Shown here: one piece after another, positions 29,980 through 34,077 of the stretch
How positions within the stretch are numbered: the stretch's first letter is position 1
Layout: every line of letters starts with the position of its first letter
Source of the DNA: Microcaldota archaeon
GTDB taxonomy: Archaea > Micrarchaeota > Micrarchaeia > Anstonellales > Bilamarchaeaceae
DNA: 48,867 nucleotides
Assembly (NCBI GenBank): GCA_030613375.1
Contig: JAUWMC010000003.1
Location: 1 to 48,867 of the forward strand
Direction: 5' to 3'
The notes under the pieces: generated by a model
The model's input: only the letters and a program-made list of their open reading frames with translations
Told to the model about the DNA's origin: nothing
Database searches by the model: none
Position numbers and translations under genes: made by a program

Positions 29980-30672
29980 ATGGTGAGCTTAGATAACGCG
30001 ATAATTGCTTCCTACAAAAAAGAAGGAAAGCATTTCGAACTTTATGTAGACCCGAAGAACACTTACCTTTACTTGGACGGAGGAAAAAAGGATCTCAAAA
30101 ATATACTTGTGGTGGAAGAGGTTTACGAGAACGCAAAAAAAGCGGAACGGGCGAAGAACGCGGACATCCAGAAAGCGTTCGGAACCACGGACATTATGGA
30201 GATCCTGGAAATTACCCTGAAAAAAGGAGATGTGCAACTTACCACCGAACAAAGAAAGAAGAAGGTGGGAGATAAGCGCAAGAAAATCATAGATATGATT
30301 TGCAGGGAAGCAATAGATGTGCGCACGAAGGCACCAATACCCCCGATACGCATTGAAAATGCGATGGAGGAGGTAAGGTTCCACGTGGATCCCTTCAGGG
30401 ACCCAAAAGAGCAGATGGATGATCTTCTCAAAAAGCTGAGGCCGTTGATTCCGATTAAGTTCGAAAAAATTCAGATCGCGGTGAAGATTCCTCCAGAATA
30501 TTCACATCGTGCTTATGGCACTTTGAAACTGTATGGAATAAAAAAAGAGCAATGGCTCAAGGATGGATACCTTATAGTTGCGGTTGAGATTCCTGCAGGA
30601 ATGCAGGGAGAATTCCTTGACAAAATGAACAAGCTGACGGCCGGACAGGTCGAGACAAAAAAAATTGAATAG
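29980..30672 (+). CDS. Ribosome maturation protein SBDS/SDO1
   Basis: SLDNAIIASYKKEGKHFELYVDP; ICREAIDVRTKAPIPPIRIENAMEE. Confidence 0.95.
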   Translation: MVSLDNAIIASYKKEGKHFELYVDPKNTYLYLDGGKKDLKNILVVEEVYENAKKAERAKNADIQKAFGTTDIMEILEITLKKGDVQLTTEQRKKKVGDKRKKIIDMICREAIDVRTKAPIPPIRIENAMEEVRFHVDPFRDPKEQMDDLLKKLRPLIPIKFEKIQIAVKIPPEYSHRAYGTLKLYGIKKEQWLKDGYLIVAVEIPAGMQGEFLDKMNKLTAGQVETKKIE

Positions 30673-30680
30673 GTGATTGA

Positions 30681-31562
30681 TTGGAAAAGATTGTGATACC
30701 CGGAGAGATTATCTGGGAACAGGAAATGAGAGTTCCAAACACCGTAGTGGTGGATGGGAAAACTTATGCAACCGTTCTAGGAATGGTGCGGGAAGATAGG
30801 TTTATCCCCCTGGAACTTGTATACAGACCCAAGCCAGGGGACAATTTGGTTGGAGTAGTGACGGACGTTAGGCATTCGGGATATTCCGTAGACATTAATC
30901 TTCCTCACGGAGGCTTTATCAGCTCTAAATTTACTAGAGTAAGCTTCAAGCAGGGAGACCTTATCTTTGGGCGGATTAAATTCGCTGATGAGGTTGGAAA
31001 CGTAGATATTACGGATGCGAAGAGACTTCCTGCAGGAAAACTTGTAGATGTTCCAGCTTCTAAAGTACCGAGGATTATCGGGAAGAAAAGCAGTATGCTT
31101 AACGTAGTCCGGGATGGAACCGGTTGCTCTATTTTCGTAGGGAACAACGGCTATATCTGGATTGGAGGAAAAGGAAACCTTCAGCTTGCGCTCAAAACTC
31201 TTGATTTTATCATTGAGAATGCGCACAAACACGGGCTTACGGACAAGGTGGCTGAATATCTGAATGAACAGGGTGGAAACGTAACGGTTCCTCCAAGGGA
31301 AGAAGCTGCTCCAGCAGCACCTGCTCCTACTGAGGAAAGGGCTCCTGAGCCTGCAGAGGTAAGCGGATTAGGTGCGCCTGTAGAAGAGACTCCAGACCCG
31401 GCAAAAGAGCCGATTACTGAAGACCCTGCACAGGTTTCTGAAGGAGAGCCTGTAGTTGAGCCTCCTAGGGCTGAAGCGCCTGAAGAAAGTGATAATCCCC
31501 TGATGAAGGGTGGATCCGGAATTCCGGAAAAGAAAGACAAAATTGATGTTGATGAGATGTGA
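30681..31562 (+). CDS. Exosome subunit Rrp4 with about 85-aa acidic/Pro-rich C-terminal extension
   Basis: S1/KH: GDNLVGVVTDVRHSGYSVDINLPHGG; KVPRIIGKKSSMLNVVRDGTGCSIFVGNNGYIWI. Confidence 0.93.
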   Translation: MEKIVIPGEIIWEQEMRVPNTVVVDGKTYATVLGMVREDRFIPLELVYRPKPGDNLVGVVTDVRHSGYSVDINLPHGGFISSKFTRVSFKQGDLIFGRIKFADEVGNVDITDAKRLPAGKLVDVPASKVPRIIGKKSSMLNVVRDGTGCSIFVGNNGYIWIGGKGNLQLALKTLDFIIENAHKHGLTDKVAEYLNEQGGNVTVPPREEAAPAAPAPTEERAPEPAEVSGLGAPVEETPDPAKEPITEDPAQVSEGEPVVEPPRAEAPEESDNPLMKGGSGIPEKKDKIDVDEM

Positions 31563-31566
31563 TAGA

Positions 31567-32301
31567 ATGGAAAAGCCAGAATTAATTAAAGATGGAAAAA
31601 GGCTTGATGGAAGAGGCCCCAAGGACCTGAGGTCCGTAAGAATTGAAGCGGGCGTGCTTAAGGAAGCACAAGGCTCTGCACTAGTAGAGTGGGGCGGAAA
31701 CAAGGTTATTGCAGGTGTGTATGGACCTAGAGAATGCATTCCCAAACATGGAGCTGACCCTTACAAGGCAAAGCTCAAGGTAAGGTACATGATGACACCT
31801 TTCTGCTCAAAGGGAGAGCACTCAAGAAGCGGACCTAATAGAAGGAGTATTGAAATCTCCAAGGTAATGAGGGAAGCATTTGAGCCGGTTGTAATGACCA
31901 AAAATTTCCCAAGGAGTCAGATCGAAGTGTATGTTGAAGTAATACAGGCAGAAGGAGGAACAAGAGTTGCTTCGCTTACTGCAGCTGCAGTTGCGCTTGC
32001 TGATGCAGGAATTCCTATGACTGACATGGTTTCTGCAATTGCTGTAGGAAAACTAGATGGTCAGCTTGTAGTGGACCTGGGCAAGGACGAAGACAATTAT
32101 GGAGAGTCTGATGTGCCTATGGCAATTACCCACAGGGACAAGCAAATTGTGCTTCTGCAGATGGACGGCCTTCTTACTAGGGAAGAACTTGCCCAGAGCC
32201 TTGATGATGGGATTGAGGGTGCAGACAAGGTGTATGAGCTGCAGGCTGAAGCGCTCAAGAAATCCTATGAAAAAGAAGAGCGGGGGAAGCTGAATCTTTG
32301 A
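31567..32301 (+). CDS. Exosome RNase PH-like subunit Rrp41 (start at MEKPELIKDGKRLDGRG)
   Basis: KRLDGRGPKDLRSVRIEAGVLKEAQGSALVEWGGNKVIAGVYGP. Confidence 0.94.
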   Translation: MEKPELIKDGKRLDGRGPKDLRSVRIEAGVLKEAQGSALVEWGGNKVIAGVYGPRECIPKHGADPYKAKLKVRYMMTPFCSKGEHSRSGPNRRSIEISKVMREAFEPVVMTKNFPRSQIEVYVEVIQAEGGTRVASLTAAAVALADAGIPMTDMVSAIAVGKLDGQLVVDLGKDEDNYGESDVPMAITHRDKQIVLLQMDGLLTREELAQSLDDGIEGADKVYELQAEALKKSYEKEERGKLNL

Positions 32302-32311
32302 GGTGATTTTT

Positions 32312-33100
32312 ATGGGAGAAGAAACAAAAACCAAAATTCTTCGTGAAGTAAGGAAAGATTTCCTTCAGGAATTGCTTGCAAAAGGCAAGAGGTTCGATGA
32401 GAGGGAGTTGAATGAGTGGAGGCCTGTAAATGTGGATAAGGGAGTACTCCCGAACGCAGAAGGGTCTGCACTTGGAGAGATTGGAGGTACTAAGGTACTT
32501 GCAGCAGTAAAGTTTGATGTGATGACTCCGTTCTCCGATAGGCCGGAAGAGGGAGTGTTCATGACCGGGGCAGAATTCGTTCCGTTCGCATCCCCCGAGT
32601 TTGAGGCTGGGCCCCCAAGGGAAAACGCAATTGAGTTTGCGCGTGTAGTTGACAGGGGAATCAGGAGTTCGGAAGTAATCAATGTGAAAAATTTCTTCAT
32701 TGAAGAAGGGAAAGTACTCGGATTGTTCCTGGACCTTTGGGTATTGGACAATACAGGAAATCTTATGGATACCGGTGCACTTGCAGCTTGCGCTGCACTT
32801 CTTGATGCAAAAGTTCCGAAGATTGAAGATGGAAAGCTTATCCGGGAAGAAAGTTCCGGTGGGCTGAACATGAAGTACAAGCCTCTTAATACGAGCTTCA
32901 TAAAAGTAGGAAACAAATTCCTGATGGACCCATCCAAGGATGAGGAATATGCAAGGGACCTTCGATTTACAATTGGAAGCGTGGAAGGATTGATTACAAG
33001 CATACAGAAATCCGGGGATTCTGGGTTAAGCAAGGATGATGTAATGAACCTTGTAGACATTGCATTTGAAAAATCAGATGAACTGAGGAAATACCTATAG
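32312..33100 (+). CDS. Exosome subunit Rrp42 (start at MGEETKTKIL)
   Basis: GKRFDERELNEWRPVNVDKGVLPNAEGSALGEIGGTKVLAAVKFDVMTPF. Confidence 0.94.
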   Translation: MGEETKTKILREVRKDFLQELLAKGKRFDERELNEWRPVNVDKGVLPNAEGSALGEIGGTKVLAAVKFDVMTPFSDRPEEGVFMTGAEFVPFASPEFEAGPPRENAIEFARVVDRGIRSSEVINVKNFFIEEGKVLGLFLDLWVLDNTGNLMDTGALAACAALLDAKVPKIEDGKLIREESSGGLNMKYKPLNTSFIKVGNKFLMDPSKDEEYARDLRFTIGSVEGLITSIQKSGDSGLSKDDVMNLVDIAFEKSDELRKYL

Positions 33101-33346
33101 GTGGTTATGATGAAGTGTCCAAGATATGGAAGAAGGATTAGGAAACTTGTAGGAGCTGCAACAAAGAAGAAAAATGCATTTTATGAGTGTCCTAAATGCA
33201 GAAAGAAATCCGTAAAAAGGATTTCCTATGCACTCTGGAAGTGCAACTCTTGCAACGCAAAGATTGCAGGCGGAGCATACAGCCTGAGCACCCCTGGTGG
33301 AGAAACCGCAAGGAGGATGCTCGCAAAGGAAGAAACAGGTGAATAG
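33101..33346 (+). CDS. Ribosomal protein L37Ae (start probably internal MMKCPRYG/MKCPRYG)
   Basis: RYGRRIRKLV...YECPKCRKKSVKRISYALWKCNSCNAKIAGGAY, zinc ribbon intact. Confidence 0.92.
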   Translation: MVMMKCPRYGRRIRKLVGAATKKKNAFYECPKCRKKSVKRISYALWKCNSCNAKIAGGAYSLSTPGGETARRMLAKEETGE

Positions 33347-33484
33347 ATGGGAGAATATAGAGAATGGGAAACCGGAAACAAGGTAATAATTTCCAGCCTG
33401 AAGACTTTTGAGTTCCCCTCCACGGGAGCAAAGGTTTTGTTCAAGGCAAGGCCCCCTATTGCGAAAGAGATGGGAACGGATTAG
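33347..33484 (+). CDS. Cysteine-less Rpo12/RpoP (RNA polymerase subunit P)-like protein, 45 aa
   Basis: MGEYREWETGNKVIISSLKTFEFPSTGAKVLFKARPPIAKEMGTD; position between L37Ae and Pcc1; matches YxCxxCGxxV...CPxCGxxxLxKxRPP with each C replaced. Confidence 0.75.
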   Translation: MGEYREWETGNKVIISSLKTFEFPSTGAKVLFKARPPIAKEMGTD

Positions 33485-33491
33485 GAAATTT

Positions 33492-33722
33492 ATGGAATGT
33501 GTGGGAAAACTAAGGTTTTCTTTTCCAAGTGCAAAGAAGGCACTTGAGGCGAAGAAGGCTTTAGGAAAGGGGGGTCCCAAAACCGAGCGTTCAAAAGTGA
33601 ATGTTTCGGTTAAGGGAAAACAATTGGTTGTGGAAATTTCTGCAACCGATACGGTAGCACTTCGGGCTGCGATGAATACGTACCTGAGGCACATGAAGGT
33701 TATTGAAGAATTAGGTGTTTAA
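33492..33722 (+). CDS. KEOPS subunit Pcc1 (start at MECVGKLRFSFPS)
   Basis: SKVNVSVKGKQLVVEISATDTVALRAAMNTYLRHMKVIEEL; position after Rpo12. Confidence 0.85.
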   Translation: MECVGKLRFSFPSAKKALEAKKALGKGGPKTERSKVNVSVKGKQLVVEISATDTVALRAAMNTYLRHMKVIEELGV

Positions 33723-33723
33723 G

Positions 33724-34077
33724 ATGGCGGAAAAAGAAGATATTCAGAAGGAAATTGTAAGGCTGCAGAATTTTGAAAGGCAAATGCAGGCAGTGCTTAT
33801 GCAGAGGCAGCAGGTTCAGATTCAGCTCGGGGAAATCGGGCTTGCGCTGGAAGAGCTTGAAAAGGCAAAGGATAAGGAAGATGTTTACAAAACGATTGGA
33901 AACATCATGATAAAGACTACTGCTAAGGATGCAAAAACAGACCTTGAAGAAAAGAAGATACTCATGGCGAGCAGAATGAAGACGCTTGAAGGGCAGGAGG
34001 AGAAACTCCGCGCTGAACTTGTAAGGCTTCAGAAAAAGCTTCAGGAAGAAATGGGTTCTTCTGATGAAGAAGCTTAA
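33724..34077 (+). CDS. pfdB: Prefoldin beta subunit
   Basis: Coiled-coil LQNFERQMQAVLMQRQQVQIQLGEIGLALEEL...VYKTIGNIMIK. Confidence 0.9.
   Translation: MAEKEDIQKEIVRLQNFERQMQAVLMQRQQVQIQLGEIGLALEELEKAKDKEDVYKTIGNIMIKTTAKDAKTDLEEKKILMASRMKTLEGQEEKLRAELVRLQKKLQEEMGSSDEEA

Follow-up and report, generated by a model that had tools for sequence, protein, structure and literature searches.

A cysteine-free homologue of RNA polymerase subunit Rpo12 in two sister families of Micrarchaeota

The rpo12 locus

The window, a DNA stretch of 48,867 nucleotides, is one whole contig of a 1.16 Mb genome (G000; 93.8% complete, 90 contigs). The 45-aa ORF of the original prediction, at 33347-33484 (+), translated exactly to MGEYREWETGNKVIISSLKTFEFPSTGAKVLFKARPPIAKEMGTD, which contains neither cysteine nor histidine, and the residues E, T, F and T announced in place of the four zinc ligands were recovered as E6, T9, F23 and T26. 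Pfam matches on its neighbours (SBDS, Rrp4-like, Rrp41, Rrp42, L37Ae, Pcc1 and prefoldin beta) placed it between L37Ae and Pcc1 in the exosome/L37Ae/Pcc1 operon, as had been claimed, with a DHH phosphoesterase and an adenylosuccinate synthetase also encoded nearby. The first base of the ORF directly follows the L37Ae stop codon and its end lies 7 nt upstream of the Pcc1 ATG (Table 1).

Relatives are referred to below by family: f1 is the family of G000 (43 genomes), f4 its sister family (10 genomes), and f2, f3 and f5-f11 are the other families of the order. Two profiles were used, A1 (26 relatives of the window protein) and A2 (canonical four-Cys Rpo12 from the same order).

Table 1. Coordinates of rpo12, its former ligand positions and the surrounding genes in the window
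Feature	Coordinates	Strand	Evidence
rpo12 (rpoP), 45 aa, Cys-free, His-free	33347..33484	+	translation, ORFs of relatives, profile matches, Foldseek
codon 6, Glu (ligand Cys 1 position of canonical Rpo12)	33362..33364	+	alignment; D/E in 34/41 f1 sequences
codon 9, Thr (ligand Cys 2 position)	33371..33373	+	alignment; T/S in 39/41 f1 sequences
codon 23, Phe (ligand Cys 3 position)	33413..33415	+	alignment; F in 40/41 f1 sequences
codon 26, Thr (ligand Cys 4 position)	33422..33424	+	alignment; T/S in 40/41 f1 sequences
C-terminal 17 residues, KVLFKARPPIAKEMGTD	33431..33481	+	equivalent of P. furiosus peptide KILYKPRPKVPRRVKAI (PMC2680338)
L37Ae, zinc ribbon intact (CPKC...CNSC); alternative ATG 33110 possible	33101..33346	+	PF01780, E 3.6e-22
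Pcc1	33492..33722	+	PF09341, E 1.9e-14
prefoldin beta subunit	33724..34077	+	PF01920
Rrp42	32303..33100	+	RNase_PH
Rrp41, longer start 31510 possible	31555..32301	+	RNase_PH
Rrp4-like exosome cap subunit	30681..31562	+	KH_6, ECR1_N_2
SBDS	29980..30672	+	Pfam

Conservation and identity of the ORF

The original prediction could have failed in two ways: through a canonical four-Cys Rpo12 elsewhere in the genome, or through the joint lack of any Rpo12 profile match and of conservation in relatives. Neither was encountered. An equivalent ORF was retrieved by protein search from all 43 f1 genomes, which are separate assemblies, and in every case where enough of the locus was read to reveal its position, it came after L37Ae. 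Identity to the window protein was 87-93% within the genus and 44-87% in the other f1 genera. Among eleven close sequences dN/dS (omega) was mostly 0.03-0.19, with dS saturated for some pairs. Judged from these codon comparisons the ORF is under strong purifying selection and, since all f1 genomes keep it at such omega values, it was considered a real gene and not a chance reading frame.

Taken alone, the window protein matched NCBIfam subunit P below the curated cut-offs (E 0.028), and in the PDB it retrieved Rpo12 chains (E 0.31 and 0.35) and no other family. Matches were stronger when relatives were included: Rpo12 chains were the sole sequence matches of profile A1 in the PDB (Thermococcus Rpo12, E 0.0019), and the NCBIfam 'RNA polymerase subunit P' models, to the exclusion of any other NCBIfam family, matched 23 of the 26 A1 members (best 1.1e-6). 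Alignment of A1 with A2 by hhalign covered 42 columns (Prob 97.9, E 3.2e-13). The Pfam model PF03604 (Rpo12/RPAB4) did not match the window protein because it is built on the cysteines.

Position and tail pointed in the same direction. In families f2, f3 and f5-f11 a four-Cys Rpo12, such as YVCPKCGKEIEKIEQKFVRCPYCGSRILMKKRPPIAKEVSTD in G077, occupies the same slot after L37Ae and carries the clade-specific terminus also present in the window protein, (I/V)AKEVSTD or a close variant; the place of the window ORF in L37Ae-Rpo12-Pcc1-prefoldin beta is therefore an orthologous one. The basic K-x-R-P tail is present as KVLFKARPPIAKE, and K33, R35, P36 and P37 are invariant in A1. These four-Cys proteins of close relatives, with their common slot, tail and hhalign match, made the identification firm. 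The four-Cys zinc ribbon itself is absent, as none of the 46 aligned f1 and f4 sequences displayed a cysteine at any of the four positions. On sequence and position, the window protein is therefore a homologue and orthologue of Rpo12 devoid of the zinc ribbon, and not a canonical member.

No canonical four-Cys Rpo12 was detected by PF03604, NF001607 or A2, either in G000 itself or across all 53 genomes of f1 and f4. Profile A2 retrieved canonical copies at 72-98 bits in every genome of f2, f3 and f5-f11; in f1 and f4 its best match was as a rule the Cys-free ORF, at about 16-31 bits, and no other match went above 22 bits. One candidate for a second Rpo12 in G000 (L001, G000:C30:6121-6189 (-)) was rejected as a 111-aa multi-ribbon protein with several CxxC and a weak RPAB4 score, and the remaining profile matches there were only chance stretches. 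By these profiles, the ORF is the sole Rpo12 copy detectable in G000.

A general loss of zinc sites was also rejected. The intact ribbon claimed for the neighbouring L37Ae was verified (CPKC...CNSC, see Table 1), and G000 also keeps the sites of Rpo1 (CKTC/CPGH/CPHC/CPHC), Rpo2 (CNKC/CPLC) and Rpo10 (CFTC...CC). Rpo2 of this genome consists of two adjacent ORFs, Rpo2' and Rpo2'' (L157, G000:C3:17349-20755 (-)). Its Rpo3 is short and lacks the Cys-rich ferredoxin insert (L188, G000:C28:11167-11658 (-)).

An AlphaFold2 model of moderate confidence, based on 30 f1 sequences (mean pLDDT 74.5, pTM 0.42), displayed strands at residues 2-6, 12-15 and 31-33. When compared by Foldseek with 350,542 PDB chains, its top 13 matches were all Rpo12/Rpb12 (best 9bct_P, E 0.28, TM 0.57; TM range of the top matches 0.44-0.60), although these E-values do not reach significance by themselves. 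Modelled as a control, the canonical Rpo12 L068 of Parvarchaeota (pLDDT 81.2) retrieved the same top match at only E 0.013, which indicates that high Foldseek E-values are normal for 45 residues. The model lends support, short of proof, to the metal-free fold initially claimed, in which zinc would be absent.

Distribution of the cysteine-free forms

Families f1 and f4, two sister families of one micrarchaeotal order, were Cys-free at all four sites. Replacements in f1 were constrained (Table 1), while the third-knuckle sequence of f4 was LPFSG, IALSG or LALSG. All 71 Rpo12s read outside these two families across the phylum displayed four cysteines; they comprised 23 from the order, 19 class representatives and 29 among the lowest-scoring Rpo12s of the phylum. 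Since the 19 representatives and these 29 low-scoring sequences were all of the four-Cys type, independent losses elsewhere in the phylum were rejected. A weak match in G281, a 71% complete genome, was not an Rpo12. Profile A1 left a gap between the Cys-free members, which scored 52-97 bits apart from genus g24 and the divergent G009, and the rest (42 bits or less). An Rpo12, Cys-free or canonical, was present in all 97 of the phylum's good genomes.

In a tree of Rrp41 and Rrp42, f1 and f4 formed one clade with a support of 93/95, just under the star threshold of the tool, so that a single change of state accounted for the distribution. As Cys-free forms were confined to this clade among the Rpo12s read, the loss of the cysteines is most simply viewed as a single event.

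Further divergence was encountered inside the clade. Genus g24 of family f4 (G068-G072, L109-L113; genomes of 0.5-0.6 Mb) was examined for a possible absence of Rpo12, which was rejected, as a Cys-free ORF follows L37Ae in all five genomes. These ORFs, in two forms of 42 aa and about 48 aa, are strongly altered (e.g. MKYYLWPKLKEVEVESLDEFFVTGIHILVKKDPDGPVEVSTD) and missed by Rpo12 profiles, and were assigned only by position and by their conserved end, EVSTD or EISTD. They suggest an ongoing erosion of Rpo12. The f1 member G009 (L108, G009:C23:32700-33300) combines an unrelated N-terminal half, MTDNDKNETSTKSKD..., with a conserved C-terminal half, IAFPNTGNRIVIKKRPPIAIEVSTE. Both variants fit the idea that the ribbon is less strictly required here.

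Proposed role and alternative explanations

Functional expectations can be drawn from Pyrococcus furiosus, whose RNA polymerase forms no stable open complexes when deprived of subunit P (PMC2680338, Reich 2009). With the 17 C-terminal residues of P, KILYKPRPKVPRRVKAI, supplied as a peptide, open complexes formed again in vitro and single-round activity was restored to 80%, whereas a C27S/C30S mutant of P associated poorly, reached 14% activity and was displaced by the wild type (PMC2680338). The 17 C-terminal residues of the window protein, KVLFKARPPIAKEMGTD, are the equivalent of this sufficient peptide. Conservation in f1 was likewise concentrated in the C-terminal part: mean entropy was 0.88 bits for residues 21-45 vs 1.72 bits for residues 2-20, and all nine invariant A1 columns lay within residues 21-45.

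From these data a scheme can be proposed in which the common ancestor of f1 and f4 would have exchanged all four zinc ligands and fixed a metal-free ribbon, of which the new knuckle F-x-F-P-x-(T/S)-G would be part. The N-terminal hairpin would serve as a scaffold, held by hydrophobic packing (F21, F23, P24) and by partner proteins instead of zinc. By analogy with P. furiosus biochemistry, the tail K-x-L-x-K-x-R-P-P-(I/V)-A-K-E-x-x-T-D would dock on Rpo2/Rpo3 and support promoter opening, the protein being presumably incorporated in the RNA polymerase. As the C27S/C30S mutant was badly impaired, loss of the ligands would require compensation.

A natural metal-free Rpo12 thus appears as the best reading: we hold it very probable (roughly 0.9) that the ORF is the only Rpo12, that the f1 and f4 ancestor lost the ligands and that the metal-free protein still works as Rpo12. 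A core RNA polymerase subunit thought to depend on metal would then apparently work without it in one branch of tiny archaea. The broader proposal is more tentative, and we regard it as somewhat short of an even chance: the Rpo12 zinc site would be dispensable in living cells, lost once and followed by a fixed metal-free core, with one genus eroding further and compensation lying in Rpo2/Rpo3.

The protein might conversely be a descendant of Rpo12 that has left the RNA polymerase and been co-opted by the exosome or another operon partner, leaving the cells without Rpo12. Its location among exosome genes, the strongly altered versions of G068-G072 and the precedent of the ASFV RNA polymerase, which has no RPB12 (PMC10881513), fit such a scenario. 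Operon position is uninformative in this respect, however, because the canonical Rpo12 of sister families occupies the same slot, and the parts conserved here (K, R-P-P and the tail) are those needed for function in the P. furiosus enzyme (PMC2680338). Co-option is accordingly deemed very improbable.

Slightly less probable still is that a metal remains bound through other ligands, be it Asp/Glu6, Thr/Ser, the backbone or residues of a partner. Site 1 is indeed acidic in 34 of 41 f1 sequences, but it is I/V/L in f4, and site 3 is Phe in 40 of 41 f1 sequences and Leu/Ile in f4. Sites 2 and 4 are T/S, and the alignment contains no conserved His or Cys anywhere in the protein. As for a chance ORF or an assembly error, with the genuine Rpo12 lying in the 6% of the genome that the assembly lacks, the fragmented state of G000 lends it some room; it is hardly credible in view of 43 separate assemblies that carry the ORF, its purifying selection, the absence of canonical copies from all 53 f1 and f4 genomes and the detection of Rpo12 in every good genome of the phylum.

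The cellular RNA polymerases of archaea and of eukaryotes share Rpo12/Rpb12, a subunit for which the zinc ribbon counts as a defining trait. A natural metal-free clade would separate the job of the tail from the shape-holding role of zinc. Sequences of the clade allow a direct test of compensation in the reconstituted P. furiosus system, and cysteine-based models such as PF03604 will overlook Rpo12 in f1 and f4 genomes. The open-licence literature yielded no report of a Cys-free Rpo12, which does not by itself establish novelty. The small subunits of archaeal RNA polymerase were analysed in a 2026 paper (PMC13257274) that names Rpo12 and mentions neither zinc nor cysteine. We regard the protein as a novel form of an established subunit and not as a system of another type.

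Several counterparts may be compared. Natively metal-free relatives of zinc fingers (PMC11241148) and a viral RNA polymerase that dropped RPB12 (PMC10881513) are parallels. Bacterial ribosomal proteins S4, S14, S18, L28, L31, L32, L33 and L36 include C-minus forms that, according to PMC3087516 (citing Makarova 2001), have disrupted zinc ribbons and a conserved function in a core machine; unlike the archaeal RNA polymerase subunit, of which no four-Cys copy is left, they are associated with horizontal transfer and gene duplication. The P. furiosus C27/30S mutant and 17-aa peptide (PMC2680338) are laboratory counterparts of a zinc-less Rpo12, but the double mutant associates poorly and is displaced by the wild type, in contrast to a natural protein with constrained replacements at four sites. 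Chain L (Rpb12, ABC10-alpha) of Pol I/II/III structures is also among the Foldseek matches of the model; eukaryotic Rpb12, however, retains CX2C...CX2C. In yeast, as PMC2680338 reports with reference to Rubbi 1999, the first Cys of Rpb12 is essential and mutations of the others are temperature-sensitive or silent.

Compared with archaeal Rpo12/RpoP (P. furiosus, T. kodakarensis; 8cro_P, 9bct_P, 4qiw_P), the window protein is alike in length, strand layout of the model, the Y near the start, the P-x-x-G knuckle spacing and the K-x-R-P tail, and its slot beside L37Ae is that of canonical relatives of the same order. It differs by the absence of the four ligand cysteines and of the conserved R before Cys3, and by the TD that terminates its tail, a trait it has in common with the other members of its order. 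An (I/V)AKEVSTD-like end was encountered in most Rpo12s of the phylum, vs RRVKAI in Pyrococcus, and its STD was kept even in the most eroded forms.
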